Positions 29,875-54,003 of a DNA stretch of 64,000 nucleotides are shown here, in pieces (the stretch's first letter is position 1; the number at the start of each line of letters is the position of its first letter). The stretch spans positions 24,390 to 88,389 of the forward strand of contig JAJZED010000002.1 in the NCBI GenBank assembly GCA_021805775.1, read 5' to 3'. This stretch comes from a bacterium. Lineage in GTDB: Bacteria > Vulcanimicrobiota > Vulcanimicrobiia > Vulcanimicrobiales > Vulcanimicrobiaceae. The notes under the pieces are model-generated. The model worked only from the letters and a program-made list of their open reading frames with translations. It did not search any database and was not told the DNA's origin. The translations under genes and the position numbers were made by a program.

Positions 29875-29891
29875 GAGTTGACAACCCTCGG

Positions 29892-29922
29892 AGTATAGCA
29901 CGGGCGGAGGGAGGTTGTGCAA
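29892..29922 (-). promoter_or_regulatory. Predicted rpsB operon promoter
   Basis: On the minus strand TATACT (29892-29897) is preceded directly by TGC, an extended -10. TTGCAC (29917-29922) is a fair -35, although its 19-base spacing is long. Transcription would start near 29885, giving a leader of about 105 bases. Confidence 0.55.
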
Positions 29923-29927
29923 GCGCG

Positions 29928-29933
29928 AAGGAG
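29928..29933 (+). promoter_or_regulatory. Shine-Dalgarno site for rfbB
   Basis: AAGGAG is six bases before ATG 29940 and fixes that start against an open frame running 54 codons further upstream. Confidence 0.8.
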
Positions 29934-29939
29934 CGACCG

Positions 29940-30959: not shown

Positions 30960-31697
30960 ATGAAAGGCATCATCCTCGCTGGTGGCCTCGGGAGCCGCTT
31001 GCGCCCGCTCACGAAGGTCACGAACAAGCATCTCTTGCCGATCTACGACAAGCCGATGATCTACTATCCGATCGAAACGCTGGTTCGTGCCGGCATCAAA
31101 GATATTATGATCGTTACCGGTGGAAATTCGGCGGGCGATTTTCTTCGGCTGCTCGGGAACGGCTCCGAGTTCGGCCTGAAGGATATCTATTACACCTACC
31201 AAGAGGGCGAAGGCGGGATCGCCGACGCGCTCAAACTCTGCGAGCACTTCGCCGAAGGGAACCGCGTCGTCGTTATTCTCGGCGATAACATCGTACAGGA
31301 CGATATTTCGCCGTACGTGCGACGCTTCGAGCAACAGGATTCAGGCGCGCGCATTCTTCTGAAATCCGTTCCGGACCCCGAGCGCTTCGGCGTGCCCGAA
31401 CTCGACGGCGAGCGCATCGTGCGGATCGAAGAGAAGCCCGCGCAGCCGAAGAGCGGGTATGCGGTAACCGGGATCTATATGTACGACCGTCGCGTCTTCG
31501 ATTTTATCCGCCGCATCAAGCCGTCGCACCGCGGAGAACTCGAAATCACCGACGTGAACAACCACTACATTCGCGAAGGCGACCTTCACTACGACGTTCT
31601 CGACGGCTGGTGGACCGATGCCGGCCAATTCGAATCGCTCTTCAATGCGACCCAGCTGATCGCACGCGAACGGATGGAATCGGGCGAAAGCTCGTGA
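30960..31697 (+). CDS. Glucose-1-phosphate thymidylyltransferase-type nucleotidyltransferase
   Basis: The product has 245 residues. The sugar-nucleotidyltransferase signature is IILAGGLGSRLRPLTKVTNK followed by HLLPIYDKPMIYYPIETL; the ILGDNI and GWWTDAG motifs match RmlA-like enzymes. It is shorter than E. coli RmlA (about 290), matching the short forms that lack the C-terminal oligomerisation helices. It follows rfbB and presumably provides dTDP-glucose for it. Confidence 0.88.
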   Translation: MKGIILAGGLGSRLRPLTKVTNKHLLPIYDKPMIYYPIETLVRAGIKDIMIVTGGNSAGDFLRLLGNGSEFGLKDIYYTYQEGEGGIADALKLCEHFAEGNRVVVILGDNIVQDDISPYVRRFEQQDSGARILLKSVPDPERFGVPELDGERIVRIEEKPAQPKSGYAVTGIYMYDRRVFDFIRRIKPSHRGELEITDVNNHYIREGDLHYDVLDGWWTDAGQFESLFNATQLIARERMESGESS

Positions 31698-35553: not shown

Positions 35554-35561
35554 TAGGTTGA

Positions 35562-35569
35562 CTTTCCTT
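35562..35569 (-). promoter_or_regulatory. Shine-Dalgarno site for the second DegT gene
   Basis: AAGGAAAG ends eight bases before ATG 35553; no comparable site precedes the Met at 35580. Confidence 0.6.
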
Positions 35570-35580
35570 CGATCCATCAA

Positions 35581-36553: not shown

Positions 36554-37939
36554 TTAAATTGCATCCGTTGGAATTTGGTGAACGTATCGACTTTCCACAT
36601 TATCTGAGAAGCCGTGCTTAAAAAACGTTAAATCTATTTCTCTTTTTGAAGCCTTTCTTGTGCCGTAGCCGTCGATCGAAATTGGAGCGCCGAATAAGCG
36701 TCCTAAATGAAATTCTTGATTCCCTCTTAGCTTCGCACGTTGTATCGCATTAAAAACATTCCAGTGAGACGGGCTACGATTTTCCCACACCAAAGTGGAG
36801 CCGCCCAGCGCGTAATAGGATTTCCCCCCCGCGTCACTGGTGATAACGACGCCACAGGCTTCGCCGTCGCGAAGATAGGATATAGACACCTCGCCATCCC
36901 CATTCTTGCACATATGAACGGCCTCGTCGAACAATTGCCGGTTAAAGGCATCACCATATCGTGTATATGTGTGTTCCTGAGCTTTTCGGAGCGCAGACAA
37001 AACCTCAGCGACTCGGGCGTCGTCAAGTTGTGAACCGCTCAAATAGCGCATTTGCAAATTATCCCGTCCCCAATTAATCGACGACTTATAACTCTTGCGA
37101 ACGTTTCTATAAATGGCATCAACGCCACGTGTAAGGTCGACGACAGGCCTATCCCAGACTTCCAAAGCGTAATGCAAATGACTCCCAAGGCTTCGAGAAA
37201 GCGCAGGGAAGCTCGCCGCGTCTTCCTGAATGCTATAAATGCGTATGCCGTAGGATCGAGACATCAACTTTAAATACGGACCTAAAAATTTATAAACCAA
37301 ACGTCTATCGCTCGGCGCCCTGCAAAACACCTCAGCCGGCATTCCCGGCATGCCTTCAACCCATTTTATCCACGACGCAACGTGATCTGGATAGACGAGC
37401 ATCGGAACGACAGCCGCCACGCGCCCGTCTACCACAATTAGAAATGAGACGTTGTCAACTTCCGGTCTTTCCGGGCGACCATCAAAGCCTTCAATTCCAA
37501 CCAAACCGGCATACGGCAAACCGGGATGGTAGATATTGCTTCCGATCCCTTTCAGATTCAAAAGTCGCAGAAATTTCAGCGGCTCGGACGCGTAGGAGAC
37601 TACCTCCACCTTGTCATTCGAAGCTGCGTTTGGCCCCGCTTTAGCAACAATTCCTGCGATCGATTCTCCAATCGATCGAACCGATCCAGCAGTCATCCGC
37701 CTCGCCATTCGAAGAGCACCCAATGCATGGTCTGAGCGGTCGCTTTCTCGGCATATTGCTGCGACGACAATAAGAGTTCCGATCAAGCGAATGGTTTCCG
37801 CAGGATGACCTATAAGTTTGCGTACCGGTTCGCACCAGGCCACACCATTGATATCAATATCTTCGAAAGATATCTCTACCTCGACCTTCGTAGGCGTGCC
37901 GTTAACATTCAGAATCGTTGACCCCGATGCTCCGCTCAC
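36554..37939 (-). CDS. FemAB/GNAT-type acyl- or aminoacyltransferase
   Basis: The product has 461 residues. The C-terminal half resembles the FemAB-related GNAT domain of exopolysaccharide and peptidoglycan-bridge systems: VDAIYRNVRKSYKSSINWGR, then SYLRDGEACGVVITSDAGGK and SYYALGGS, ending in HLGRLFGAPISIDGYG. The first ~130 residues are not recognised. It starts with GTG directly after the TAG of the methyltransferase gene. Composition is AT-rich. Attachment of an acyl or aminoacyl group to a surface sugar is the likely role. Confidence 0.6.
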   Translation of the reverse strand: MSGASGSTILNVNGTPTKVEVEISFEDIDINGVAWCEPVRKLIGHPAETIRLIGTLIVVAAICRESDRSDHALGALRMARRMTAGSVRSIGESIAGIVAKAGPNAASNDKVEVVSYASEPLKFLRLLNLKGIGSNIYHPGLPYAGLVGIEGFDGRPERPEVDNVSFLIVVDGRVAAVVPMLVYPDHVASWIKWVEGMPGMPAEVFCRAPSDRRLVYKFLGPYLKLMSRSYGIRIYSIQEDAASFPALSRSLGSHLHYALEVWDRPVVDLTRGVDAIYRNVRKSYKSSINWGRDNLQMRYLSGSQLDDARVAEVLSALRKAQEHTYTRYGDAFNRQLFDEAVHMCKNGDGEVSISYLRDGEACGVVITSDAGGKSYYALGGSTLVWENRSPSHWNVFNAIQRAKLRGNQEFHLGRLFGAPISIDGYGTRKASKREIDLTFFKHGFSDNVESRYVHQIPTDAI

Positions 37940-38665
37940 CTATAAAGTCCTATGAATACGACGAAGAATCGCGTCAAACCGATAGTGGGATGCGTAAAAC
38001 TCTTTAGGCATAAGACGAACTTCGCACGTCCATCCGGTGCGATAAGCAAGATCGATAAACTCAGGCCGTGACCGCCAGCGGCCAATCTGCGAGCGGTGAG
38101 TTTTTAAAAGCGATCGCTCCACCGAGTCATTTTGATAAAATAAATGCGCTCGTTCCAAGTCCGGGTTATTTCCTATATACAACACTTCAATATTCGGGCA
38201 ACAGGTTGACAACTGACCGAGCAAATGTTCGCCGTCATCTTCACTAAAATACGAAAAACTGCCATAACAAAGCGCTTTATTTAGTCTAGGGTATTGCGAC
38301 TGTGAAGAAATAAACGAACGCACGTCGCTTTTGTCAAACTCAAAATTCGGAGGATCGGCAAAATGAGTTTTTGCGACTTCTATGAGATATTCCGACGAAT
38401 CGATGCCGCGAAAATGGGAAATGTCACCGAAGAACTCTTTTGAAAGGGCCCCGTTGCCACACGCGATATCCAAGAGGCCGTCGCTTGAACGAAAGGCAAG
38501 GCCATCGCGAACAGCGTCGACAATCATTTTTATCTGCTCTGTTCCGATTGCTTTGCCATTTACCGTTCGCCTTACCTGGCCCCAAAAATCGTCCGAAGGA
38601 AGGGTTTTTGGATATTCATCATAGTCGTATTTCGGATAGACTCGATCGTCGGCGGGATCCGCCAT
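37940..38665 (-). CDS. SAM-dependent class I methyltransferase
   Basis: The product has 241 residues from ATG 38665. Motif I is GLLDIACGNGALSKEFFG with the next acidic residue in HFRGIDSSEYLIEVAK, then CYGSFSYFSEDDGEHLL. The C-terminal part is not recognised. ATG at 38665 sits one base after the TAA of the glycosyltransferase gene, while the longer open frame would overlap it by 65 bases. Confidence 0.78.
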   Translation of the reverse strand: MADPADDRVYPKYDYDEYPKTLPSDDFWGQVRRTVNGKAIGTEQIKMIVDAVRDGLAFRSSDGLLDIACGNGALSKEFFGDISHFRGIDSSEYLIEVAKTHFADPPNFEFDKSDVRSFISSQSQYPRLNKALCYGSFSYFSEDDGEHLLGQLSTCCPNIEVLYIGNNPDLERAHLFYQNDSVERSLLKTHRSQIGRWRSRPEFIDLAYRTGWTCEVRLMPKEFYASHYRFDAILRRIHRTL

Positions 38666-38666
38666 T

Positions 38667-40076
38667 TTATTTTCCCGTCCGATCGATCCGCGAGCGCCGA
38701 ACGCGTGCATCGATCGTCTGATGAGCGGCATCTAAGATGCTTAAGTACTCATTCGTTAGGTACTTTCCGCCGCTCCCGCGGCCCGCCAGTTCAATAAACA
38801 TATCCAATTCCGGATAATCCGCGCGATTTGGACGATAGAGCTCAACGAAAAGGCGTGCCATTGCTTGCAAATAGCCGTCGTCTTTTACCCATCCGCGATC
38901 TGCGGCCCACCTAAGAATAAATTCCCATTCGAATATGCCAGCCGCGTAAATTGGGCCCTTCGTTTTAGAATTTTGAGCGGCATGCCGACGAAATGCACTG
39001 CCGAGATTCCCAACGAGCGCCACCCGAAGACCGGCGTCGAACAAATTGCAATATAATGCTACGTCGGTCAAAAAGCGCATTCTACGGCCATGGAGCATGA
39101 ACGGGTTGTCCAGTTGAAGAAGGGCGTCTTTCGAAACGAGAATATTACTCGGCTCGCCGATCACGTTTTCGGAACGCGCAATTACTCGATCGGCAAATTC
39201 TTTTTCGTCGATCGTTCGTGGTTCCTGAAAGCCAAAAGGAATAGTCGCAGCGTCGATTCGGCCACGATCGTCGACTTCATACCGCGAATGGAAGGCCATG
39301 TCCGCTTCATAACGTTGGGCGATATCCACCAATGTAGAAAGCGAATTCGGCAATAAATAATCGTCGTCAAATATGAATTTGAGATAAGTTCCGCGCGACT
39401 TCTCTATGAGATAATCGCGATTTGCGCCTGGTTCCTGGCGGCGGGGATTGCTGAGATATCGAATTCGGGTATCTTGCCATTTCGAAACGACAGATTGTAC
39501 TGCGTCGCCGATCGAGTCGTCACTGATAAGTATCTCGAAATCCTGGTACGTTTGAGCGAGGGCGCTTAAAATGCAGGTATCAAGAAAATCCGGCCTAAAA
39601 GCAGGGATGAGGATCGATACAGATGGCGCCTCGCTAGGTTCGCTAGCGGAGATCCCGGCTCCGTAGGGAGCGCGGCACTCTTCTCGCCCGAATCTCAGAT
39701 AGTGGTAGAACGGCTCTAGGCCTGCCGCGGCGACATCGGCGTTACATTCAAGATACTTTTTCGGATCGAAGCCGGGCCTTGGGAACCGTCCTTCCTTCCA
39801 GCCATAATTTACGTAATGGCTGACGGGGTCAATACCGGAGCGTGCCACATCGGCGTTCGATGACCGATAGTAGGGACTGTCAAATTCAACTCGGACCACG
39901 CGCGATATGGAATCGTCCGGGCGATGGACGTCTTGCTGCATCATTCTCCAAGAAGGCTCGGTCGCGATGACGGTCGTCGTAATAGCTCGGTGCGGGGTGC
40001 CGTTTTCAGGGGAAGCCGCGGCCGGAACACTCCCAAGATGATTCTTCGCCCATAGCGCCAATAACCTCCGTTGCAT
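38667..40076 (-). CDS. GT2-family glycosyltransferase with N-terminal surface-glycan repeats
   Basis: The product has up to 469 residues. Residues about 65-135 hold two copies of a motif of the form FDxxYYxxxNADVAxxGxxP-HYxxxGxxEGR ([40 protein letters not shown]), common in GT2 enzymes of glycan clusters. The GT-A domain follows: VSILIPAFRPDFLDTCILSA, then FEILISDDSIGDA and the DxD region FIFDDDYLLP. The annotated ATG at 40076 overlaps the divergent ATG at 40075 in the same CATG. ATG 39944 or 39941, after GGAG, would be a plausible shorter start. Confidence 0.82.
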   Translation of the reverse strand: MQRRLLALWAKNHLGSVPAAASPENGTPHRAITTTVIATEPSWRMMQQDVHRPDDSISRVVRVEFDSPYYRSSNADVARSGIDPVSHYVNYGWKEGRFPRPGFDPKKYLECNADVAAAGLEPFYHYLRFGREECRAPYGAGISASEPSEAPSVSILIPAFRPDFLDTCILSALAQTYQDFEILISDDSIGDAVQSVVSKWQDTRIRYLSNPRRQEPGANRDYLIEKSRGTYLKFIFDDDYLLPNSLSTLVDIAQRYEADMAFHSRYEVDDRGRIDAATIPFGFQEPRTIDEKEFADRVIARSENVIGEPSNILVSKDALLQLDNPFMLHGRRMRFLTDVALYCNLFDAGLRVALVGNLGSAFRRHAAQNSKTKGPIYAAGIFEWEFILRWAADRGWVKDDGYLQAMARLFVELYRPNRADYPELDMFIELAGRGSGGKYLTNEYLSILDAAHQTIDARVRRSRIDRTGK

Positions 40077-40989: not shown

Positions 40990-40995
40990 CCGACG

Positions 40996-42475: not shown

Positions 42476-42898
42476 CTACTGCTGAGAATCGAGCCCGGCG
42501 CGGCGCGGCGGGATCGTGTTCGCACCTATCGACCGCGCGTAGGCCTTAAATTTCACGAAGGTCTTCAACCGTTCGCCGAGCTCTTCGTGGTAAGCGCTCA
42601 AACGAACGATCTGTCGTTCGCGGATGGCATGAATGCGTTCGAGCCGCTCGCGCACCAAGGTATCGAATGCATCGTCCCGATCGAGATCCTCGCGCTCGAG
42701 TTCCTTTTCCAACGAATGGGTAATGCGGCGCGCGGCCCCGATCGCCGCATCGAGTCGCTCCCAGTCGTGCTCCTGCAGCGCCGCTTCGAGATCCGCGCAC
42801 GAACGTTCGAGCGCACCGATCTCGGCGAGTGCCGCCGAGCGCGCCAAGCTATCCGACGGCGGCAAAGCCGCTGCTCGTACGAGAAGTGCCCTCGTCAT
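42476..42898 (-). CDS. Small helical protein after fliS, possibly FliT-like chaperone
   Basis: From ATG 42898 the product has 140 residues, almost all helical, with heptad-like stretches (EIGALERSCADLEAALQEHD, THSLEKELEREDLDRDDAFD). Position directly after fliS, overlapping it by 50 bases, and size suggest a FliT/FlgN-type flagellar export chaperone; sequence alone does not prove it. A TTG at 42847, one base past the fliS stop, is an alternative start that would avoid the overlap. The gene ends convergently with the Pro/Ala-linker protein gene. Confidence 0.5.
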   Translation of the reverse strand: MTRALLVRAAALPPSDSLARSAALAEIGALERSCADLEAALQEHDWERLDAAIGAARRITHSLEKELEREDLDRDDAFDTLVRERLERIHAIRERQIVRLSAYHEELGERLKTFVKFKAYARSIGANTIPPRRAGLDSQQ

Positions 42899-43295
42899 CA
42901 TCCGAACGCTGCATCGCCTTCCATTGCGACACGGCCTCGGCCCAGGTCTTGCGATAATCGACGAAATCCGGGAGCAAGCGTTCGACGCGGCCGACATCTT
43001 TTTGCATGTTGGCCATCACCAATTCATGGTGCCAAAATTCATAGACGCGGAAAAGATTCACCGAGAGCTCCCCGCCGATCTCCATATCGAGGGCTCCCAT
43101 CAGCACTGCAAGCGCGCGTTGTGCGCGAAGAAGCGCGCGATGGATTCCTTCGATATCGCCGACGTCAGCATGCATTTTTTCAATCGCTTGCTGCGCGGCC
43201 ACGACCAAGATATCGAAGACGCGAACGATGAGGTCTTCTTTCGAAGCCGTCAAGATCGCCGTTTCGACGTATTTGTCGTTTGCCGAACGCGTCAC
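42849..43295 (-). CDS. fliS: Flagellar export chaperone FliS
   Basis: FliS holds flagellin monomers for export. The 148-residue helical protein has the family start YVETAILTASKEDLIVRVFD and AAQQAIEKM. The start is GTG 43295, just after fliD. It is in the flaG-fliD-fliS order usual for many bacteria and would be expressed from the sigma-28-like promoter at 45855-45882. Confidence 0.88.
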   Translation of the reverse strand: MTRSANDKYVETAILTASKEDLIVRVFDILVVAAQQAIEKMHADVGDIEGIHRALLRAQRALAVLMGALDMEIGGELSVNLFRVYEFWHHELVMANMQKDVGRVERLLPDFVDYRKTWAEAVSQWKAMQRSDDDEGTSRTSSGFAAVG

Positions 43296-43310: not shown

Positions 43311-45326
43311 CTAGCTTCCCGAACTCGAGCCGTTAAAGAAGCCCGAAAGTTGCGACTGGAGCGACTGGTATTGCGCGAGCGTCGCTTCGGTCTGCACGAA
43401 CTCTTGACGAAGCGTATTCGCCTGCTGATTGGCGTTGTCTTGAATCTGCGCCACCTGCGACTGCAGCTGCGTGATCTGATTGGTATTCTGATTTTGGAAG
43501 GTCTGCAAGAGCGAAACGGAGGGCACCGTCCCGACGATGCCGTTATTTAGCAGCGTCGGCAGCCCGGTGGCATAGGTGAGGTACGAACCGAGCTGATTGG
43601 TGAGCCCCTGCGCGCCGTTGAGGAGATCCTGGACCGCATTGGGATTCGCGGCTAACGCGGCATCGAATTGCGTGACGTTCAGCGGCTGCAACGTCCCGTC
43701 GGTCCCTTGGAAGGTCGTCGTATTGACCGCCTGTTGGCCGGATGATCCCGGTTGTGTCGCCTGACTGTTATACGAGAGCTGCGAGAACGAGCTGCTGGTC
43801 TGTAGCCCGATCTGCGAGAGCGCATTATAGCCGCCGAAGGCGCCGCTTCCTAGGAAGCCGCTCACGATATTCGTCAATTGGTTCTTCAGATTCGTCACGC
43901 TGTCGACGCCGAAGAGTACGCCGCCGCCGACGGCAGGCGCAACCTGTCCCGGCAACGCGCTTCCCTGCGCGGCCTGCAACACGATCGGAGCTTGCGTCGC
44001 ACTATTGATTTCGGTGACCGCCGAATTATATGCCGAGACGAAGGTGTTGATCGCATTGACGAGTTGTGAATTATCTTGCGCGACCGTCACGGTAAACGGA
44101 GACGTGGTATTTCCCGTGAGTTGTAGGGAGACTCCCGGAATCGCCGTCGTCACTGTGTTGCTGTTGCTGTAGTACGTCGTCGAGCCGCCCGAGGGGTTCG
44201 CAACGACCACCTGCGACTGTTGACCGACCGTCGTCGTCGCTCCCGCCGCCGATGTAAGGCCGACCGCCGTCAGGAAATTGCTCGTATCGCCGGAGGAGCC
44301 GACGACGATCGATTGCGCCCCGCTGCTCTTATTCGTCAACGAAATCGCACCGGTCTGCGCGTTGTAGGTCGCGACGACGCCGGCATTACTGGCGTTGATC
44401 TTTGCGAGCACCGAGGCGAGATTATCGCCGGAGGCCGAGACGCTGATCGAAACGCCGTTAATCGTGAAGTTTCCGCTCGTCACCGGAGTGACGAAACCGG
44501 CATTCGTGCCGGTGGAATCGAACGAGACCGCCTGGTTGATGCCGCCGACGCCCGCCGTACCGGTAACGCCGGTTGTCGGACCCGTATTGTTAATCTGCGC
44601 TCCCGAAAGCCGCAGCACGTCGAGCAGATTCCCTTGGTCGTTCGCGCTCCCGAGCGTGATCGGTTTGCTGCCGCTGAGCACGACCGCTCCCGCTGCATTG
44701 AGCGTCGCCGTAAACGACGGATCGTACGCCTGCACCGCGGTTTGAATGTTTGCCAAAATCGTATTGAGCGACTGCGTGTTGACGTCGTAGCTGACCGAGA
44801 CGCCGTCGATCGTTACCGATCCGGTCGTGCCGCTACCGTTGCTCGGCGTAACCGCCGCATAGGAATCGGCGAGCGGGACGGTGTTCGAAGCCTGGTTGGC
44901 GTAGATTCCCGCAGTCGCCGGGAGAAGGTCGGTAATGTTATGTCCGGCTGCCGTATTGCTGAGGATCGAGGTCGGAGTCGCGGTCTGCACCGAATCGATC
45001 GTATAAACCCCCGGGACCGCATTCCCCCCGGCGATACCGGTCGCGACGATCGCGGCGAGGTTCGTGCTGGTCGCCGAAACCGCATCGTAGATATTCGGCT
45101 GCGAGATCGCGCCGAGCGCACTCTGCACCGAGGAGAGCAGATTGTTGATCTTGATCAGTTCGAGATTGGCGGCGTTGAGCGTCGCGATCTGCTGGTTGAT
45201 CTGCGTCGTCGGCGCCAGCGTCAGCGCGGTCAATTTCTGAATGATCGAATTGTAATCGATACCCGACACGATGCCGGGGAAAGAGATCGGGGGAACGTTC
45301 GTCCCGGGGATCTGGCTGCTGGACAT
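43311..45326 (-). CDS. fliD: Flagellar filament cap protein FliD
   Basis: The 671-residue HAP2 caps the growing filament. The N-terminal domain has FPGIVSGIDYNSIIQKLTAL and QINQQIATLNAANLELIKIN coiled segments; the C-terminal domain has the closing coil IDDNANQQ-type helices (QIQDNANQQANTLRQEFVQ). The central part is longer than the 450-500 residues of common FliD proteins and is full of Ser/Thr/Gly/Asn, so extra surface domains are likely. An AAAGGA site precedes the ATG by a few bases. Confidence 0.93.
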   Translation of the reverse strand: MSSSQIPGTNVPPISFPGIVSGIDYNSIIQKLTALTLAPTTQINQQIATLNAANLELIKINNLLSSVQSALGAISQPNIYDAVSATSTNLAAIVATGIAGGNAVPGVYTIDSVQTATPTSILSNTAAGHNITDLLPATAGIYANQASNTVPLADSYAAVTPSNGSGTTGSVTIDGVSVSYDVNTQSLNTILANIQTAVQAYDPSFTATLNAAGAVVLSGSKPITLGSANDQGNLLDVLRLSGAQINNTGPTTGVTGTAGVGGINQAVSFDSTGTNAGFVTPVTSGNFTINGVSISVSASGDNLASVLAKINASNAGVVATYNAQTGAISLTNKSSGAQSIVVGSSGDTSNFLTAVGLTSAAGATTTVGQQSQVVVANPSGGSTTYYSNSNTVTTAIPGVSLQLTGNTTSPFTVTVAQDNSQLVNAINTFVSAYNSAVTEINSATQAPIVLQAAQGSALPGQVAPAVGGGVLFGVDSVTNLKNQLTNIVSGFLGSGAFGGYNALSQIGLQTSSSFSQLSYNSQATQPGSSGQQAVNTTTFQGTDGTLQPLNVTQFDAALAANPNAVQDLLNGAQGLTNQLGSYLTYATGLPTLLNNGIVGTVPSVSLLQTFQNQNTNQITQLQSQVAQIQDNANQQANTLRQEFVQTEATLAQYQSLQSQLSGFFNGSSSGS

Positions 45327-45362: not shown

Positions 45363-45824
45363 CTACGCGTTGCTGTCGAGCGTCACTCCTTGGTGCTGGT
45401 CGAAAAACTCGGCGATCCCAATAAGAATCTCCGGCGGGAATTGCGCGACTTCCTGATTCGTTCGCGGATCGGAGAAAACGGTCACGATTTCATTGGGATG
45501 ATGCAAGACGCGGTACGAAACGTTGAGCGTCACCGGCTGGGGATTCGAGGGGGGCCCAAAGAAGCGCGCGACTGACGAAACAACTTTTCCGTCGCCGCTT
45601 ACGGGTGCCGGACCGAAACCCACCGAGGGTGGAGCGCCCGAAGAATTCGGCGTACCGATCGGGCCGGGTGGGGCCGGCGGAACGCTCGCTACGGTTGGGG
45701 TCGCTCCTTCGAGCGGAGCGCCTTCGCCGGATCCTTGAGCCGGAAGGCCGCTCGCCCCGGAGACGCCGACGCTACCGGCGGCGATCGGTGGCGGCGCAAC
45801 TGCCGCTGCAGACGTGACATCCAT
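45363..45824 (-). CDS. flaG: FlaG-like flagellar protein
   Basis: The product has 153 residues: a Pro/Gly/Ala-rich N-terminal 95 residues and a C-terminal domain of FlaG type, with LNVSYRVLHHPNEIVTVFSD and TNQEVAQFPPEILIGIAEFF. FlaG influences filament length. It is the first gene after the sigma-28-like promoter at 45855-45882 and is followed by fliD after 36 bases. A G-rich ribosome site (AAGGGGG) is seven bases before the ATG. Confidence 0.78.
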   Translation of the reverse strand: MDVTSAAAVAPPPIAAGSVGVSGASGLPAQGSGEGAPLEGATPTVASVPPAPPGPIGTPNSSGAPPSVGFGPAPVSGDGKVVSSVARFFGPPSNPQPVTLNVSYRVLHHPNEIVTVFSDPRTNQEVAQFPPEILIGIAEFFDQHQGVTLDSNA

Positions 45825-45854: not shown

Positions 45855-45882
45855 TCATCGGCGCCGCACGAAGGGCAGTTTA
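45855..45882 (-). promoter_or_regulatory. Sigma-28-type promoter before flaG-fliD-fliS
   Basis: On the minus strand TAAA (45879-45882) is followed after exactly 16 bases by GCCGATGA (45855-45862), close to the FliA/SigD-type consensus. TAAA also contains the TAA stop codon of the glycosyltransferase gene upstream. Transcription would begin near 45848, ~24 bases before the flaG ATG. Confidence 0.8.
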
Positions 45883-47886
45883 GCCCGCCGCGACGCGGCT
45901 CCGGGCCCGGTCGCCGGCGAGCTGATAGGCGGTGACGCAGGCGATAAAAGCGGAGGTCTGGTCGAAGGCGACCCGGACGTGCGAACGGAGACTCTCGCGC
46001 TCGGCGGGCGAGCGCTCCCAGGCGCGCGCGAGCCCGGCTTCGATTGCGGCATGCTCCCCGGGGTCGACGACTTCGGCGAGCGGCCCGAAGAGCTCGCGAC
46101 CGTACCCGGCGGCGGAGAGCAACGGGAAGGCGCCGGTCGCCGCCGCGGCGACGACCTGATGCGCTCCCCGGCCCGTCCACGAGCAATCCGCGACGACGCG
46201 CGCGCGGGCACGCAGCCAGGCGCGGTTGCCGAGGTTCAGGTGCCTCTGCGGAATCCAGAGCGCCCGAACGCCGATTACCTCGATCAGGCCTTGGAACCAC
46301 TGATGGTCGAGGACCGGGCCGGTAAAGACCACGGGAATATCGAGCTTCTTCGCCGCGAGGGCAAGGGCGATCTGGTTCGAGCGCGCTTCGACCGGGAGAT
46401 CGCAGAGGACGAACTCCCCCTCTCCCGCGAGAACTCCGGCATCTTCGCAGCGTGGCGCACCCTCGGCGAGCGCGGGAACGACGATCGTGCTCCCCGACCA
46501 CCCGAAACGGCTCCTCAGCAGCTCCTCTTCCGCCGCGCAGGAGAGCAGCGCTACGTCGCAGCGGCCGAGCAGCGCTCGCACGGCGAGCTCCGCGGCGGGG
46601 CGCGGATCGAACTCTCGCTCCGGGGCGGCGTTCTCGATCGAGAGCGCGCGCGCCCCAAGCGCGGCGAGATAGAGATCGAGCATCCCCGCGTCGTTCACGT
46701 TCCCATAGACCGCCTTCGTCGCCTTCGGCCCGAGGAAGCTCTCGCCGCGAGGATCGTCGACGGAGAGCGAGGCAACCAACGGCATCGCCGGTAGCCCTTC
46801 GAGCAGGGCAAGTGCGGCGGGGGCGACCTCGCTGCCCCACGCATGCACGAGATCGTACGACGAGAGATCGACACGCACACCGACCGGAAAGACGACGACT
46901 TCGAAACCCTCGCGCTCGAGCCGCCGCGCGAGTACCTGCATCGCCGAGATATCCGCATCGGGGTTCGCAAGCGCATCCTCGCGAACGAGCATCGCGATGC
47001 GCCCCGAAGAACCGCCCTGCGCTGCCGGTTCGTGCAAAACGCTCGGACGGGCGGCAACGGCATCGCCGACGATGACCGTGCCGAGCGTACTAGCCGTCGG
47101 GCCGTCGTCGGGATCGAACGAGACGGTGATCGCAGGCGGTAGCGAGAGGACGACCGGCACCGCGATATCGCCGCTATCCCCGCCATCGCGAAGCACCCGC
47201 ACGCGTGCCGCGGGGAGCTCGCCGGAGCGGTTTGCAATCGCAACATCGTACAGACGCTGGGGATCGAGTTGCGTCGGCGCGATATCGAGCCAGCGCGACG
47301 CAAATGCGATTGCATCACCGTCGCCCAGATCGAGAGCGACCTCTGCCCCGGCGCGCTCAAACGAAAGCGCTCCGACCGCACCGCGCGGATCGACGATCGC
47401 GGCACACGTGCCGGTGCGAATGTGACGCGCGGCATAGACGTAGGGTGCGAGATCTTCAAAGAGGTCGGTGTAGTTGACAACCCCGAGCAGACGCGATTCT
47501 CGTGCGTGCAGAATATCGCTACGCCGCCCGGGCTGAAAAATCTCCAAACTCTCCTCGCGCGCCCTCCGATTGAGAAACTGGACGCGCAGCCAAGGAAAGA
47601 TCGCGCGTTCGACGCCCTCGGCACACCGTTCGTCGAGCGCGCGAAAATCGAGTGGCCAGAGGAGGACACTGCTCTCTCGCTCCAGCAGCCCGGCGACATC
47701 CACCTCGCAGCCGAACGCGATCGACCAGCGGTCGCCACGGTAAAAACCAAGGTCGATCGCGCAGCGTTGCGTAAGCGACCAGCCCGGTTCGAGCCGCGCA
47801 AAGGCCAACATCGAGGAATCGATGCTCGCGAGAGCCTCGGGCCGAGGAGCGAGCGCGAAGCGTCGGTGCCGATCGTGAAACCTCAC
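45880..47886 (-). CDS. Glycosyltransferase with GT-B-like C-terminal region
   Basis: The product has 668 residues. The N-terminal ~290 residues are not recognised and look beta-rich. From about 300 there is a GT-B (GT4-type) layout: GRIAMLVREDALANPDADIS, then YDLVHAWGSEVAP, CDLPVEARSNQIALALAAKK and VVADCSWTGRGAHQVVAAAA with the donor-site Gly-rich turn. The start is GTG with a GTGA overlap with the preceding two-domain glycosyltransferase. Lying between flagellin and flaG-fliD, it likely decorates the filament. Confidence 0.72.
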   Translation of the reverse strand: MRFHDRHRRFALAPRPEALASIDSSMLAFARLEPGWSLTQRCAIDLGFYRGDRWSIAFGCEVDVAGLLERESSVLLWPLDFRALDERCAEGVERAIFPWLRVQFLNRRAREESLEIFQPGRRSDILHARESRLLGVVNYTDLFEDLAPYVYAARHIRTGTCAAIVDPRGAVGALSFERAGAEVALDLGDGDAIAFASRWLDIAPTQLDPQRLYDVAIANRSGELPAARVRVLRDGGDSGDIAVPVVLSLPPAITVSFDPDDGPTASTLGTVIVGDAVAARPSVLHEPAAQGGSSGRIAMLVREDALANPDADISAMQVLARRLEREGFEVVVFPVGVRVDLSSYDLVHAWGSEVAPAALALLEGLPAMPLVASLSVDDPRGESFLGPKATKAVYGNVNDAGMLDLYLAALGARALSIENAAPEREFDPRPAAELAVRALLGRCDVALLSCAAEEELLRSRFGWSGSTIVVPALAEGAPRCEDAGVLAGEGEFVLCDLPVEARSNQIALALAAKKLDIPVVFTGPVLDHQWFQGLIEVIGVRALWIPQRHLNLGNRAWLRARARVVADCSWTGRGAHQVVAAAATGAFPLLSAAGYGRELFGPLAEVVDPGEHAAIEAGLARAWERSPAERESLRSHVRVAFDQTSAFIACVTAYQLAGDRARSRVAAG

Positions 47887-50501
47887 GGTTGCTCCTTTTC
47901 AATCATCCGACGGAGCGCACTCGGGCTCAGGTTCGGAAGTTCGGTAATGCGAACGGTGCGTTCGACTACATCGAGTTCGTCATCGGCGTCGACAACTTCG
48001 ATATCGGCACAGAGATCCGATGAGAGGTCCACCGATGCAAGAAGCCGTTCGATTCGGCGCCCGATCGTCGCCGCATCGCATCCCTCTCCCAAACGCAACG
48101 TTAGCAGCACCGTGTCCTCGGCGCGAAACGCTCGTAGATAGCGGCGCACGAACCGCCCGATGGGTTCCCACGCCGTCTCACCCGCGGCGACGTCGGCGAG
48201 AAATCGCACGCTTGCCGCCGTGGGCGTACCCACATCGTCGGTGCGAGTCGCGCTCTCGGAGATTGCAGGCGAGCGTAACGCGGCAAAATGGCGGCCGCGA
48301 TCGAAACCGTTGAAGTAACCGGGGCGCGGGTCGTATCCCTGCTCGGGATATGCCGACGGATAGCCCCATTTCGCGGCGAAGTAGGCCCAATTCGTACGCA
48401 TCGTCGCGGCGTAATCGACGTTGTTTGCCACGAAACTTCGGCTGCCGAAGTGATGGATAAAAGCATCCTCGCAAACGAAAATCTTGTAACCTGCAGCGCG
48501 CGCGCGCATGCAGAAATCGTCATCTTCAAAATTACCGACGCCGAATCGTTCGTCGAAGCCGCCGATCTCGTCAACGAGCATTTTCGGCACGCAGAGACAG
48601 AACCCGACCGCCCGATCTGTATAATAGCCGCGCCCGGTTAATCGGCGGGCCCGCTCGAGGGCGAATGCCAGCATCGCTGCCTCGTCATCGTACCGTGCGT
48701 TGGGGATCTGCTGGTGCCCCGAGACGCTGTTGCTCCGCGGCGCCGTTATTCCAACGGAACGCATGCTCCGGAAGGGCCGCAGCAACGCTTCGAGCCAGCC
48801 GTCGGCGACCAGCACATCGTTATTGAGGATAACGATAAAGTCGCCTTTCGCAGCGGCGATGCCGATGTTGTTTCCGGCACCGAAGCCGAGGTTCTTTTCG
48901 TTATAGATGACGCGCACGTGCGGGTCGTCGATCGACCGGAGATAGGCGAGCGTTTCGGCGCCCGAGCCGTTGTCGACGATGATAATTTCAAATGGTTCTC
49001 GCGTACGCGCGAGCAGCGATCGCACGGCGAGTTTCGTGTATTCGGGGGCGTTCCAACTCAGAGTAACGATCGAGACCAACCCCGGTGGCGGCGCCTCGCC
49101 GACCGCGAGCCGGCTCTTGAGAAACTCGTCGTCGCGGCCGAGCAGGGAGGCGATGCTGCGTTGATAGGTACGTTCGAAGAGATCGTCGCGCGCGGGCTCG
49201 GGGTATTCGGTCAGAACGGGTTCATCCATACCGACGACGCCGAGGCCGAGTTCGAGTGCGCGCACGCAGAGGTCGGCCAGCGAACCCGCGATGCTCGGAA
49301 AGGGAGCGAGCCGATAATGTTGCGGCAGGCGCCAGAGCGCCAGCAGCAGCAGGCGCGCATCCCCGCACGCCGGCGAGGCATCGAAGCCCAGCATCGACTC
49401 CGGCGCCCCGGTCGCCGCGAGCGCGTCGTAGCGGATCTCCAGGCGCCGCGAAAGATGCTCGAACCAAAGAGGGGCGAGGATGACGCGCGCGTCGACGAAG
49501 AGTGCATAGCGGTTGCCGCGCAGTTCCATCGCCGCTCGCGCCGCGGCTACATCCTCTGAGGAGACCCACGCGATCGAAGTGACTTGTACCGGGGCGGAGC
49601 GAATATCGCGTTCGATCCGCGCGCGATGCTCCTGCGAAAGCTCACCATGGACGACGACGTGTATCGACGGCATCGGCAAGAGCTGCGCCGAGACCACCGC
49701 GTTCGGCATGACGACGCTGCGCTTGACGAGGCCGCGTTCGTAGCCCCAAAGGCCCGCGTCGATCTGCGGAAAATCTCGCCACCTTTGCTCTAAGCGTGCG
49801 ATATTCGGCATGACGCGACGAAAGCGTTGCGAACCGGACTGCGACTCGTAATGATAGAGCACGGCTTTGGGTTCGTAGACGATTCGTAGGCCGGCATGCC
49901 GAATCTTCAAACAATAATCGACATCTTCGTAGCCGTTCCAAAAGCCTTCGTCAAGCCCGCCGAGCCGAATGTAGAGTTCGCGCGGCGTTGCAAGGCACGC
50001 TCCCGTAACCGCCTGGACGTCGCGCCGCTTCATAACCGTCGGTTCCTCGCTCGGTCCGAGGAAACCGAAATGCGTCGGTGCTATCGTGTTTGCACCGACG
50101 AGGACTTCGTTAAAGATCACCCCGGCGTGCTGGACCAAACCGTCGCCGAAAAGTAGCCGCGCGCCGACCGCGCCCACATCATCGCTCTCGAGCTGCGCGA
50201 GCATCGCTTCGAGCCAACCGGGCAACGCTTTCGTATCGTTATTGAGGAGGATGAGAAAGCGGCCCGATGCGACCGCCGCGCCTTGATTGTTCGCCACGGC
50301 GAAGCCGAGGTTCCGTTCGTTCACGATCGTCTTCACCCACGGGAACTCGGCAAGCACCGTCGCGGTATCGTCGTTCGAACCGTTATCGACGACGATGACC
50401 TCGCCCATCTCTTCGCGCGGCAAAGTTTCGGCGAGTGCCTGCAAACAGACGCGCGTGAGCGCGGCCTTATTGAAGACGGGGATAACGATCGAATAGAGCA
50501 A
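47883..50501 (-). CDS. Two-domain GT2 glycosyltransferase
   Basis: The product has 872 residues. Two GT-A domains sit in one chain: domain 1 at about 1-250 (LYSIVIPVFNKAALTRVCLQ, VIVVDNGSNDDTATVL, ILLNNDTKALPGW, NGYEDVDYCLKIR) and domain 2 at about 470-720 (VSIVTLSWNAPEYTKLAVRS, IIIVDNGSGAET, VILNNDVLVADGW, FGVGNFEDDDFCMRARAAG). The region between them and the C-terminal ~150 residues are unassigned. Such fused enzymes may add two sugars in turn. It overlaps the next gene by four bases. Confidence 0.9.
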   Translation of the reverse strand: MLYSIVIPVFNKAALTRVCLQALAETLPREEMGEVIVVDNGSNDDTATVLAEFPWVKTIVNERNLGFAVANNQGAAVASGRFLILLNNDTKALPGWLEAMLAQLESDDVGAVGARLLFGDGLVQHAGVIFNEVLVGANTIAPTHFGFLGPSEEPTVMKRRDVQAVTGACLATPRELYIRLGGLDEGFWNGYEDVDYCLKIRHAGLRIVYEPKAVLYHYESQSGSQRFRRVMPNIARLEQRWRDFPQIDAGLWGYERGLVKRSVVMPNAVVSAQLLPMPSIHVVVHGELSQEHRARIERDIRSAPVQVTSIAWVSSEDVAAARAAMELRGNRYALFVDARVILAPLWFEHLSRRLEIRYDALAATGAPESMLGFDASPACGDARLLLLALWRLPQHYRLAPFPSIAGSLADLCVRALELGLGVVGMDEPVLTEYPEPARDDLFERTYQRSIASLLGRDDEFLKSRLAVGEAPPPGLVSIVTLSWNAPEYTKLAVRSLLARTREPFEIIIVDNGSGAETLAYLRSIDDPHVRVIYNEKNLGFGAGNNIGIAAAKGDFIVILNNDVLVADGWLEALLRPFRSMRSVGITAPRSNSVSGHQQIPNARYDDEAAMLAFALERARRLTGRGYYTDRAVGFCLCVPKMLVDEIGGFDERFGVGNFEDDDFCMRARAAGYKIFVCEDAFIHHFGSRSFVANNVDYAATMRTNWAYFAAKWGYPSAYPEQGYDPRPGYFNGFDRGRHFAALRSPAISESATRTDDVGTPTAASVRFLADVAAGETAWEPIGRFVRRYLRAFRAEDTVLLTLRLGEGCDAATIGRRIERLLASVDLSSDLCADIEVVDADDELDVVERTVRITELPNLSPSALRRMIEKEQP

Positions 50502-50509
50502 CGTCGGCG

Positions 50510-52606
50510 CTATCGAACGAGCGCGGCGTCGGCGATACGGCGCGCGTCCTCAAAACGCTCCTGCCGGAGATAGAGCATCGAGAGTTCGACCGCGATGCGC
50601 TGCGGGTCGAGGCGAAGTGCCGCCAGGAGCATCTGCTCGCTCTCGGTATCCCGAGCGACTTGTTGCAGCAGAGTCGCACGCAATATGACGGCTTCGATGT
50701 TCTGCGGCGTCTGCGCCAGCACGGACTCGGTTGCGGCGATCGCCTCGCCGAACTCCCCGCGGCCACGCGCGTCGAGGGCTAACAGCATCTGGGCGCGTAG
50801 GTAGTGCTCGCCGCTCCGAGCGGGAATTTTTCGCGCCCACGCTCGCGCGCTCTCCGCATCGCCCATCGCCGAACATGCTAGCGCGGCGCTCAGTAAGAGC
50901 GGAGCATCGGCAGCGTCGCACTCCAATCCACGCTCGGCGATCGCGCGCGATTCCGAGAAGCGCCCCTGGGCGAGGAGGCGATTCGCGCGTCGACGGAAAT
51001 CGGCGAGTTCGAGCGGTTCCGTTGCTTCTTCGGCGGCGTAGAGTCGTTCCACCTCGGCAAGATCGCCGCGAGCGCGAAAGATCGCCTCGAGCGGATCGAG
51101 CGCGAGCGCCGCCCCCGGCATACGTTCGGCCGCATTGCGTAAAAATTGCTCCTGCTCCGGCCAACCATTCCGTTCGCAGGCCGCAGCGCCGGCCATGAGC
51201 ACCGGAAACTGCGCGGTCGGCGATATCTGCGGGATCGCCGCGCGGATTGCATCGAGCGCTTCGCGGTCGCGGTGGGCGCGCAGGAGAAAGTTGACGTAAT
51301 CGACCGCACTCTGGTCCGACGGCAAATCGCGAAATGCCGCTGCGAACGTCACCGCCGCTTCGTCGATTCGTTTCAGACGTTCGTACGCGCGCGCGATGTT
51401 CAGACGCAACGGCAAGGCCGATGGGCGATTTTTCAAGCCTTTTTCGAACCACTCGACGGCCGCTTCATCGTTCCCTTCGGCGACGTAGGTCGCGCCGATC
51501 TCGCTATAGGCCTTCCATTTCGAGACTTCGTCGTCGACGACGAACTGCAAATGATTGTAATCGCCGTCGGCGATCGCAGCCTGGAATGCTTCGCGGGCGT
51601 CGGCGAGCCGCTTCTGTGCGACGAGCGCCTTTCCAAGAGCGAAGTGACCGTTCGCGTAGTGCGGTGAAAATTTCAAGCAGAGTCGCGCCGCCTCTTCGCC
51701 CTTCACCGGGTCGTTCATCTTTTCCGTATAGACGTCGGCGAGAGCGGATAATCCGTTTGAAAAGAACCCGCGCGGCTGCTCTTGATTGACCTCGATCATC
51801 TTCTCAAGCGCGCTACGCGCCGTCTCGTAATCGCCGATGAGAAAAGCGGTCGTTCCGAGGTTGAACCAATGGAACGCTTCTTCGGGCTCGCGCTCGACTG
51901 CAGCTTTGACGATTGCAAGGTTGCGCGCGCCCTTGTCGCGCTCGGTGACGATCTCTTTGAGGTAACCGCTGTGTTTGATCGCGATCGGCGAAGCCGATGC
52001 CTTCAGCCCTAACTGCGATTGGTCGAGGGTGATAAATTCATGAATGAGGCCGCGGTAGCGGATGCGTGGGTGATTCGGGAAGATGCGAATGAGTAGGTGC
52101 GACATCTGCCCGGTCCCTTGATAGTCGTTTGACTCATTATAACAGCGCACCCAGATCCCGGTATCGAAGGCGGGGACGTTTTTGAGTTGCGCGAGCAGCG
52201 ACTCGCTGCCGGGAAGATACTCTTCATCGGCATCGAGCATGAATATCCAGCGGTAGGACGCCATCGCGATCGCTTCGTTGCGCGCCCAAGCAAAATCGTT
52301 GCGCCATTCGCGCAGCTCGATCTTCGCACCGAACTCGCGTGCGATCTCGACGGTACGATCGGTCGAACCCGTATCGACGACGCAAATTTCGTCGACGTAG
52401 GGAGCGATGCTCTCGAGACATTTCGCGAGGAATCGCTCCTCGTTCTTCACGATCATGCAGAGACTCAAACCGGCGGGAAGTTGCGGCGCATCGGCGGGCG
52501 GGCGCGGCAAAGCGATCGTCTGAGCGATCGTTGCGGGTGGCGTCGGCGGCGGCGAGACGCTCGGCGGCGCTACCGCCTGTTTTTTTGATTTTATCCGAAC
52601 CGGCAT
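50510..52606 (-). CDS. GT2 glycosyltransferase with C-terminal TPR repeats
   Basis: The product has 698 residues. A Pro-rich N-terminal stretch is followed by a GT-A domain at about 48-230 (LSLCMIVKNEERFLAKCLES, ICVVDTGSTDRTVEIAREFG, WIFMLDADEEYLP). About ten tetratricopeptide helical pairs fill the rest. The combination resembles SunS/O-GlcNAc-transferase-like protein glycosyltransferases, in which TPRs bind the polypeptide acceptor, so it is the best candidate for modifying flagellin directly. It lacks a clear ribosome site, and a possible promoter ends only ten bases upstream. Confidence 0.88.
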   Translation of the reverse strand: MPVRIKSKKQAVAPPSVSPPPTPPATIAQTIALPRPPADAPQLPAGLSLCMIVKNEERFLAKCLESIAPYVDEICVVDTGSTDRTVEIAREFGAKIELREWRNDFAWARNEAIAMASYRWIFMLDADEEYLPGSESLLAQLKNVPAFDTGIWVRCYNESNDYQGTGQMSHLLIRIFPNHPRIRYRGLIHEFITLDQSQLGLKASASPIAIKHSGYLKEIVTERDKGARNLAIVKAAVEREPEEAFHWFNLGTTAFLIGDYETARSALEKMIEVNQEQPRGFFSNGLSALADVYTEKMNDPVKGEEAARLCLKFSPHYANGHFALGKALVAQKRLADAREAFQAAIADGDYNHLQFVVDDEVSKWKAYSEIGATYVAEGNDEAAVEWFEKGLKNRPSALPLRLNIARAYERLKRIDEAAVTFAAAFRDLPSDQSAVDYVNFLLRAHRDREALDAIRAAIPQISPTAQFPVLMAGAAACERNGWPEQEQFLRNAAERMPGAALALDPLEAIFRARGDLAEVERLYAAEEATEPLELADFRRRANRLLAQGRFSESRAIAERGLECDAADAPLLLSAALACSAMGDAESARAWARKIPARSGEHYLRAQMLLALDARGRGEFGEAIAATESVLAQTPQNIEAVILRATLLQQVARDTESEQMLLAALRLDPQRIAVELSMLYLRQERFEDARRIADAALVR

Positions 52607-52616
52607 GCTCTCTTCT

Positions 52617-52644
52617 TCTTCGGCATCTCGAACCGGAGCTCTTA
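52617..52644 (-). promoter_or_regulatory. Sigma-28-like promoter before the glycosyltransferase genes
   Basis: TAAG (52641-52644), a 16-base spacer and GCCGAAGA (52617-52624) match the flagellar promoters here in spacing, with one -35 and two -10 mismatches. Transcription would start about four bases before the ATG, making the mRNA nearly leaderless. Confidence 0.45.
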
Positions 52645-52664
52645 CTCAATAGGTCGATACGCAC

Positions 52665-52697
52665 AAAAAATCGGGGCCCGCGTGCGCGAGCCCCGAT
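52665..52697 (-). terminator. Flagellin gene terminator
   Basis: On the minus strand ATCGGGGC pairs with GCCCCGAT around a 12-base loop, followed directly by six T. It lies 29 bases after the flagellin stop and separates flagellin from the glycosyltransferase genes. Confidence 0.88.
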
Positions 52698-52725
52698 CCC
52701 AGGTTGGTTACCCGAGGATTCCGCC

Positions 52726-54003
52726 TTAGCGGAAGAGTCCGAGAACCGACTGAGCGTTCGTGTTGGATTGCGCCAACACCGAGGTGCCGACCTGTACCAG
52801 CACTTGCAGCTTCGTGAACTGCGTCGTTGCCTGACCGACGTTGAGGTCGCGGATCGACGATTCCGAGGCCTGCAAGTTGACGGCCGCGATGTTGGCGTTG
52901 GTCGAATCTTCGTTGAGACGGACAACGACTGCACCGAGGAGTGCCTGCTGGTTGAGAATCGTGTTCAGCGCCTGGTCGATCTGACCGATCGCGTCTTCCG
53001 AACCGATCGACGGGTTGTTCGCCGCCGAGAGCGCCAGGTTGATGTTCGAGATGCGCAGCGTCTGCGTATTCGTCGCCTGGATGCCGATTTGGATGACGTC
53101 GCCCTCGTTCGCTCCCGATTGGAAGTTGAACGCGGGGTTGTTCGGGTTGGTCAGCGCAGCGACGTTTTGCGTCACTTTGACGTACGAGGTCACGCCGACA
53201 TCGAGCGAGCTGATCGACCCGATGGTGACGTTGACGTTGTCGAACGCGCCGGCGATGCCCGTGGCACCGTAGAGCGTGCTCGAGACGCAGACCTGCCCCG
53301 TTGCGCTGGCAACGAAGGTTTCCTGAACGGCGATCGAGACGCCGGTGTTGACCACCTGGAGTTCGATCGTGCCGTCGAGCGTCGAGCCGGCCGCACCCGA
53401 GAGACCGGCCGCGGGGCCGGCTGCCGTGGTGAAGAAGTTCGCGCTGCTGGCGACCGCCGAAGCGGCGAGGAAGCCGTAGTTGAAGCCCGAGACTTGGAGC
53501 GCTCCATTGGTGGAGAGCGCCGAGTTCGAGGTGACATTCAACGCAGCTTGCACCTGCGGCTGGAAGCCGGCGTGGCTACCGTCGAGGAGCGGCTGACCGT
53601 TGAAGTTGACGCTCTGCGAGATGCTGTTGACTTCGAGCAGCAACTGGCTCACTTCAGCCTGAAGGTTGACGCGATCCTGATTGCTGTTGAGGGAGGACGA
53701 AGCCTCGACCGCGAGGCTGCGGATACGCTGCAGAATGTCGGTCGTCGTCGAAAGCGCACCGAGCGCGACTTGCGCCGCGTTGTTCGCGTTCTGGACGTTC
53801 TGAACGGCGGTATTGAAGCCATCGACCTGCGTTTGCAGGTTCGTTGCGATGGCGAGACCGGACGGATCGTCCGCCGCGGAGTTGATGCGCAAACCAGAAG
53901 AGAGCTGAGTAACAATGTTCTTCAGCGCGCTCTGGTTATTATTGAGGTTGAACTGAACGCTATTGGCCAACAGGTTGTTGGCGATGCTCAGACCTTGAGC
54001 CAT
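52726..54003 (-). CDS. fliC: Flagellin
   Basis: The filament subunit, 425 residues. The D0/D1 N-terminal part has SSGLRINSAADDPSGLAIAT (the Toll-like/FliS-facing conserved region) and LQRIRSLAVEASSSLNSNQD; the C-terminal helix has VRLNEDSTNANIAAVNLQAS and ends LFR. The variable middle is rich in Ser/Thr and contains one Cys, offering O-glycosylation sites. ATG 54003 is fixed by AAGGAGG seven bases upstream; the frame also opens 12 codons earlier. It has a sigma-28-type promoter, a CsrA-like leader and its own terminator. Confidence 0.96.
   Translation of the reverse strand: MAQGLSIANNLLANSVQFNLNNNQSALKNIVTQLSSGLRINSAADDPSGLAIATNLQTQVDGFNTAVQNVQNANNAAQVALGALSTTTDILQRIRSLAVEASSSLNSNQDRVNLQAEVSQLLLEVNSISQSVNFNGQPLLDGSHAGFQPQVQAALNVTSNSALSTNGALQVSGFNYGFLAASAVASSANFFTTAAGPAAGLSGAAGSTLDGTIELQVVNTGVSIAVQETFVASATGQVCVSSTLYGATGIAGAFDNVNVTIGSISSLDVGVTSYVKVTQNVAALTNPNNPAFNFQSGANEGDVIQIGIQATNTQTLRISNINLALSAANNPSIGSEDAIGQIDQALNTILNQQALLGAVVVRLNEDSTNANIAAVNLQASESSIRDLNVGQATTQFTKLQVLVQVGTSVLAQSNTNAQSVLGLFR

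Follow-up and report, generated by a model that had tools for sequence, protein, structure and literature searches.

Results

A well-supported candidate flagellin glycosylation locus

In the 64,000-nucleotide stretch of a Vulcanimicrobiaceae genome analyzed here (the window; contig JAJZED010000002.1, positions 24,390 to 88,389), the flagellin and filament-cap genes are separated by three genes of glycosyltransferase (GT) type that very probably give the flagellum a sugar coat. We call them TPRGT (a family 2 glycosyltransferase, GT2, with tetratricopeptide repeats, TPRs), dGT2 (with two GT2 domains) and GTB (with a GT-B fold). The locus is a well-supported flagellin glycosylation locus of a known kind, and GTB is its new element. 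The order on the minus strand is FlgI, FlgJ-like, FlgN, FlgK, FlgL, FliW, CsrA, FliC, TPRGT, dGT2, GTB, FlaG-like, FliD, FliS (Table 1). A preliminary description of this DNA had placed a TPR-GT2, a double-GT2 and a GT-B-like gene between flagellin and flaG-fliD-fliS, and Pfam and fold searches found all three there. It had also called the three genes overlapping, which holds for dGT2 and GTB (4 nucleotides, nt), the sole overlapping pair, and not for TPRGT and dGT2, which lie 8 nt apart. The description had also stated that no Maf-type gene is present, and no Maf gene (PF01973) was found in the genome, which is 96% complete, even at E 1. A scan for sigma-70-type promoters and terminators gave matches at chance level only.

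The host genome (2.59 Mb) belongs to the phylum Candidatus Eremiobacterota, now Vulcanimicrobiota. These are uncultured or barely cultured soil bacteria, of which the first cultured species, V. alpinus, is without flagella (PMC9758169). A limited, targeted literature search turned up no account of flagellin glycosylation in this phylum.

Flagellar loci were compared from some 40 genomes, and co-occurrence was scored over 150 genomes of the phylum (that of the window and 149 others). The order FliC-TPRGT-dGT2-GTB-FlaG-FliD is conserved with flagellin in about 20 genera of the family, strong synteny of the kind that had been proposed as a check on a filament-decorating locus. In one genome (G043) TPRGT is the only gene separating FliC from FlaG-FliD, and in family f2 TPRGT is followed by a single GT2 that matches the second half of dGT2. 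This nested series of one, two and three genes (G043, family f2 and most genomes, respectively) suggests an order of action. GTB and fliD occur together in 37 genomes, GTB only in 4, fliD only in 17 and neither in 92 (Fisher p 1e-17, a value overstated by the relatedness of the genomes, which are not independent). GTB matches of full-length strength are thus found in 41 genomes, 37 of them with a fliD domain match. As for the other four carriers, in G034, G105 and probably G082 (locus L151) fliD adjoins GTB on a contig that is cut, and flagellins are present in G005, so that every carrier (41/41) shows fliD or flagellin genes (G082 via L151, probably the same contig).

The preliminary description had held that occurrence of the genes without flagella in relatives would speak against a filament-decorating role; full-length GTB was not found in the non-flagellate relatives. 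Apparent GTB matches in four non-flagellates (G017, G021, G039, G046) span only the half related to GT4 and were rejected as canonical GT4 paralogues on their motifs and position in the tree. One non-flagellate (G069, contig C405) does carry distant TPRGT homologues, two TPR-GT2 genes (E 1e-105 and 1e-75), with flagellin and FliD not detected in it; this enzyme type may therefore serve targets other than flagellin. That unrelated polysaccharide genes settled in the flagellar cluster by chance is scarcely credible: GT2 and GT4 genes are indeed abundant, with 15 GT2 matches in this genome, but conserved order, coupling and co-occurrence all argue otherwise, and the synteny across genera in effect refutes it.

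Flagellar genes also have double-GT2 and TPR-GT2 genes nearby in loci titled Bacillota (L162, L203), Verrucomicrobia (L175, L185, L192) and Neomarinimicrobiota (L209), so this class of flagellar locus is widespread beyond the phylum. The Bacillota locus L162 has rmlA and rmlB homologues among its flagellar genes. In two Verrucomicrobia flagellar loci (L175:7976-13642 and L186:4676-10513), very large frames extend over about 2360 residues from stop to stop and combine several GT2 parts with a GT4 part in which K and both E are retained.

The presumed acceptor and rates of change

The genome has four flagellin genes, FliC and three more, plus FlgL. The three further flagellins are at L079, L080 and L081 (contigs C22, C6 and C9 of the host genome, G000); one nearly duplicates FliC but has a central insert, and another is 635 residues long. 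By alignment FliC starts at MAQGLS, and the start at 54039 taken from the listing of open reading frames (ORFs) adds 12 residues.

Long Ser/Thr-rich centers of the filament proteins had been offered as a sign of glycosylation. The proteins are rich in these residues as stated, FliC, FlgL, FlgK and FliD having 18-24% Ser plus Thr versus a window median of 11%. However, the centers exceed the ends little or not at all (center versus ends, FliC 21.7 versus 17.3%, FlgL 21.3 versus 21.6%, FlgK 21.1 versus 18.9%, FliD 26.9 versus 21.1%), and we set this weak argument aside. Among the flagellar proteins here FliD has the highest Ser/Thr content (24%), GTB adjoins flaG-fliD, and GT2s of exopolysaccharide type are common; the enzymes could accordingly act not on flagellin but on other parts of the flagellum (FliD, FlgK, FlgL, hook) or on an envelope glycan. 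We consider this unlikely, as TPRGT lies directly after fliC even without the other two GT genes (G043) and its closest solved relative modifies flagellin.

Within the genus, identity is 97-98% for FliC, 94-98% for FliD and 91-98% over FlgK, FlgL and FliD. For TPRGT it is about 90% (83% in one fragment), for dGT2 79-93% and for GTB 73-93% (fragments excepted). On these identities the glycosylation genes evolve faster than their presumed flagellin target, GTB most of all.

TPRGT, the likely initiator

The closest informative solved relatives of TPRGT are Listeria GmaR (22ao) and SunS (7msn), in keeping with the earlier proposal that it glycosylates protein directly. Its GT2 domain matches that of GmaR with E 1.2e-30 as a single sequence and 6.5e-52 as a profile, and carries a DxD-like motif, LDADEE, at 124-129, in which D125, D127 and E128 are invariant. 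A second structure, 7x9r, aligns with residues 180-411 (E 2.2e-29); it is a 503-residue chain titled "Glycosyl transferase family 2" and probably represents the TPR part of GmaR. TPRGT falls outside the SunS family TIGR04195, scoring 89.7 bits (E 1.7e-25) versus a curated cut-off of 350. It is the single TPR-GT2 found genome-wide.

GmaR modifies flagellin with N-acetylglucosamine (GlcNAc), and flagellin binding has been proposed for its TPR domain (PMC9638930). The TPR arm of TPRGT is likely flagellin-binding as well. Because GmaR, a flagellin GlcNAc transferase, and SunS are its closest solved relatives, we consider it quite likely from sequence that TPRGT is the initiating glycosyltransferase and that initiation proceeds in this manner. 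GmaR is also an anti-repressor, its C-terminal part binding the repressor MogR (PMC9638930), and TPRGT might likewise be mainly a regulator with an incidental GT domain. This is very improbable: the GT domain is the best conserved part across genera (63% identity, versus 57% for residues 237-420 and 39% for the last TPRs, 421-698), with all motifs present.

dGT2, a probable extender

The two GT2 domains of dGT2 are homologous to each other (hhalign 99.95%) and 64-67% identical across genera. They carry NND and ED(V/D)D motifs, and both GT2 sites are intact. A fold search with the whole model placed the chondroitin polymerase K4CP among the best matches and heparosan synthase further down; both are bifunctional. 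The middle region weakly resembles the second GT2 domain (hhalign probability 55%, E 1e-4) and shows alternating strands and helices in the model, and may be a worn third GT-A domain. dGT2 would rather probably carry out a two-step extension, adding two sugars. A two-sugar step is the natural reading, since the enzyme acting after the initiator in Clostridium difficile type B adds two rhamnoses. dTDP-rhamnose (dTDP, deoxythymidine diphosphate) is a possible donor, because rmlC is present elsewhere in the host genome.

GTB, a GT-B protein without the standard donor residues

The third gene had been described as having some 290 unassigned residues before a GT-B-like part, and so it proved. GTB alone has no Pfam or NCBIfam match, and Glyco_transf_4 is weakly matched by 5 of 21 homologues. 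Its AlphaFold2 model is confident (predicted local distance difference test 89, predicted template modeling score 0.89). From about residue 296 onward, fold searching matched GT4-type GT-B enzymes (6kih, E 7.4e-12). Residues 1-290 gave no Pfam family in 21 homologues and no sequence match in the PDB, and a whole-chain fold search returned GT-B matches only among the 50 matches listed.

Alignment to solved GT4 enzymes maps the canonical donor residues R, K, E and E to positions 498, 503, 572 and 580 of GTB, the last two being those of both E of the EX7E motif. None of the four is kept in any of 36 distinct full-length GTB homologues: position 498 is P, S, A or G, position 503 is S, C, A, Q, G, W or H, position 572 is mostly G or S and position 580 mostly R or A. 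In contrast, 29 canonical GT4 paralogues retain the R in 26, the K in all 29, E572 in 15 and E580 in 22 (the count leaves aside a GTB fragment and three divergent relatives of GTB). In the tree, a branch supported at 100/100 has on one side the GTBs together with the three divergent relatives and a GTB that is interrupted by a stop codon. Loss of the donor residues thus defines the GTB group, being complete in 36/36, with the residues mostly kept in paralogues beyond the 100/100 branch. In PglH, changing either E to A costs about 300-fold, and R191 and K196 contact the pyrophosphate (PMC5792488). Among the sequences examined, the donor-less GTB turned up only in Eremiobacterota. The exact 4-nt overlap of dGT2 and GTB recurs in 19 of 25 tabulated loci, from 12 genera, and GTB is predicted to be translationally coupled to dGT2.

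Some genomes of genus g9 (loci L158, L233, L239, L241) have, following a dGT2 homologue within the sugar cassette, a divergent GTB-like protein that likewise lacks the donor residues. In G036 (L022) the GTB frame is split by TGA, and the matches in G029 and G103 (genus g21) run over TAG; these may be assembly errors or a decaying gene.

A variable dTDP-sugar cassette beside the flagellar cluster

A cassette at 29778-40076, which did not feature in the preliminary description any more than the missing donor residues of GTB did, sits between rpsB-tsf-pyrH and the flagellar cluster, the latter counted as far as the ATPase gene at 40075. It comprises rmlB, rmlA, the two DesI-like aminotransferases, the FemAB-like protein, methyltransferases and a GT2. 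In most relatives with flanks compared, rmlA and rmlB are kept at 72-98% identity, and the genes between are swapped from genus to genus; in G035, for example, the interior holds a nucleotidyltransferase, a C-methyltransferase, an rmlC-type epimerase and a GT2-GT4 fusion.

A proposed mechanism

From the observed gene order, co-occurrence, families, folds and motif loss, we infer the substrate, the sugars, the order of action and a non-catalytic role for GTB as follows. The three genes would encode a cytoplasmic machine that uses nucleotide sugars directly and O-glycosylates flagellin before export. TPRGT would grip flagellin by its TPR arm and start the glycan on Ser/Thr in the surface domain, with an N-acetylhexosamine as the likely first sugar. 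dGT2 would then attach two more residues, probably dTDP-derived 6-deoxyhexoses. GTB, co-translated with dGT2, would team up with it as a partner of GT4 origin that has lost its own donor site, serving in acceptor binding, or in setting chain specificity or end, rather than in standard donor use. Finally, the neighboring dTDP-sugar cassette would tailor the outer sugar, such that glycans differ between genera and flagellin barely changes. This four-part explanation, with initiator, extender, partner and tailoring cassette, is in our judgment fairly probable as a whole.

Its most tentative part is GTB. We lean, with some hesitation, to a non-catalytic partner in an obligate complex with dGT2, holding or measuring the growing flagellin glycan; such a partner could have arisen from an active GT4 enzyme by losing the whole donor site and gaining a new N-terminal domain. 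We know of no donor-less subunit in any flagellar glycosylation system. We prefer this reading to one in which GTB, its donor site rebuilt, is catalytically active as a terminal transferase, for instance for a dTDP-amino sugar from the cassette, its divergence tracking the changing sugar. That second reading is a lesser but serious possibility. GTB is third in line, like GT3 of C. difficile (PMC5207246), and is the least conserved of the three GT proteins in its own genus, beside a cassette of variable content; H348 is invariant; and the second E of EX7E holds ribose hydroxyls (PMC5792488), which dTDP has only in part. However, the phosphate-binding R and K are gone as well (36/36), and a possible substitute, R502, is not retained in members of g9, g20 and g6.

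Several points weigh against the proposed scheme. The conserved GT4-half residues H348, W570, G574 and D608 persist in GTB and may form another active site. E572 is missing from some canonical paralogues too (S in 13/29), and EX7E is thus not absolute. The cassette is tied to flagella and flagellin by position and analogy only, because close RmlA homologues also occur in non-flagellate relatives, which likewise rules out RmlA as a flagellum-specific marker. Moreover, NeuB-family genes are present elsewhere in the genome, and other sugars are therefore possible.

Table 1. Coordinates in the window of the glycosylation locus, its domains and neighboring genes
Feature	Position	Strand	Evidence
FliC flagellin, presumed acceptor	52726..54003	-	Pfam Flagellin_N/C; start set by alignment
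TPRGT (GT2 + TPR protein)	50510..52606	-	Pfam GT2 at residues 48-175, E 2.4e-24; TPR families onward to C-terminus
TPRGT GT2 catalytic domain, residues 44-236	51899..52477	-	Pfam; match to GmaR GT domain 22ao; invariant D125, D127, E128
TPRGT TPR region, residues 237-698	50513..51898	-	Pfam TPR families; 7x9r match
dGT2 (double GT2)	47883..50501	-	two GT2 stretches (Pfam)
dGT2 first GT2 domain, residues 1-225	49827..50501	-	NND(T) and YEDVDYC motifs invariant or nearly so; K4CP fold match
dGT2 middle region, residues 226-470	49092..49826	-	weakly GT-A-like, without DxD; hhalign and model
dGT2 second GT2 domain, residues 474-700	48402..49082	-	NND(V) and GNFEDDDFC motifs; homologous to first domain
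GTB	45880..47886	-	GT4-type GT-B fold in C-terminal half
GTB N-terminal domain, residues 1-290	47017..47886	-	mixed alpha/beta, confidently modeled; relative not detected
GTB GT4-type GT-B half, residues 296-668	45883..47001	-	fold search (6kih); motif tabulation in 36 homologues; tree
dGT2-GTB stop/start overlap, 4 nt	47883..47886	-	exact overlap in tabulated loci
FlaG-like protein	45363..45824	-	adjoins fliD in relatives; weak Pfam FlaG match, E 0.11, over C-terminus
FliD filament cap	43311..45326	-	Pfam
FliS flagellin chaperone	42849..43295	-	Pfam FliS, E 6.5e-23
RmlB, dTDP-glucose 4,6-dehydratase	29778..30944	+	TIGR01181, 428 bits, cut-off 365
RmlA-like glucose-1-phosphate thymidylyltransferase, short form	30960..31697	+	TIGR01207, E 1.1e-76, below cut-off
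Two DegT/DesI-like sugar aminotransferases (dTDP-4-amino-6-deoxysugar type)	33140..35580	-	TIGR04427, E 2e-102 and 2e-84, below cut-off
FemAB-like acyltransferase (Acetyltransf_6)	36554..37939	-	Pfam, E 4e-10
Cassette methyltransferase (37940-38731) and GT2 (38667-40076)	37940..40076	-	

Other features of the window

The ORF at 42476-42997 was ruled out as FliS, which Pfam places at 42849-43295. It directly follows fliS in a conserved position, with 31-99% identity and without a Pfam family, and is perhaps a FliT-like chaperone. An ATPase (TIGR03015-like, below cut-off) and a 485-residue family-less protein (40075-42453) adjoin the flagellar cluster, a position that they keep in family f2 and in most of the family's genomes; within the genus the ATPase is 96-99% identical. 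A tandem pair of subtilase-family proteases lies at 543-4696.

Discussion

The compact locus exists in natural one-, two- and three-gene versions, which would make the order of glycan assembly readable from genomes and open to rebuilding in E. coli. GTB poses the question whether a GT fold without a donor site can be a working part of protein glycosylation. A variable cassette beside a near-constant flagellin suggests that the surface is changed via sugars and not via protein sequence.

Comparison with known systems

The GT2 domain of TPRGT is homologous to that of the peptide S-glycosyltransferase SunS (TIGR04195, 7msn; E 1.7e-25, 90 bits), whose substrate is different. GtfA-GtfB of the serine-rich repeat adhesins, in which GtfB has a non-catalytic role, differs from the locus here in families and substrate. 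As an analogy only, it is a case of cytoplasmic protein O-glycosylation that needs two GT-type proteins (PMC7948813). Like the bifunctional K4CP, dGT2 combines two intact GT2 domains in a single chain. Caulobacter FlmG has a GT domain of GT-B type at the opposite end from that of TPRGT. By description it is, like TPRGT, a cytoplasmic TPR and GT protein for flagellins (PMC7591256). Listeria GmaR shares with TPRGT an N-terminal GT2 domain followed by a TPR arm, into which the 7x9r match runs. GmaR is also an anti-repressor (PMC9638930); in the locus here TPRGT is one of three glycosyltransferase-type genes after fliC.

The preliminary description had suggested an undescribed system, and this is not supported as such: the plan, in which an initiator, a two-sugar extender and a third gene come after fliC and dTDP-sugar genes accompany them, is known from C. 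difficile type B (PMC5207246) and resembles that of Pseudomonas syringae (PMC3927599). In P. syringae and P. aeruginosa (fgt1, fgt2, viosamine island), GT genes also lie beside fliC, and the outer sugar, a dTDP-4-amino-4,6-dideoxyhexose, comes from a variable island (aminotransferase, methyltransferase, acyltransferase) that the cassette here resembles (PMC3927599). This likeness is by description; Fgt1 and Fgt2 lie upstream of fliC, unlike the genes here, and neither a GmaR-type initiator nor a donor-less GT-B protein is described in PMC3927599. In C. difficile type B, as here, three GT genes lie downstream of fliC (CDR20291_0241-0247), with GT1 adding GlcNAc and GT2 two rhamnoses (PMC5207246), and a FemAB-like protein, a dTDP-sugar aminotransferase (FdtB-like) and rml genes are near by. 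In C. difficile, unlike here, Pfam GT2 (PF00535) is present in each of the three GTs, and the protein called GT2 includes a methyltransferase domain. The likeness is thus one of gene plan, and the third gene sets the present locus apart, encoding a GT-B protein of GT4 descent whose donor site is erased and whose N-terminal domain is new.

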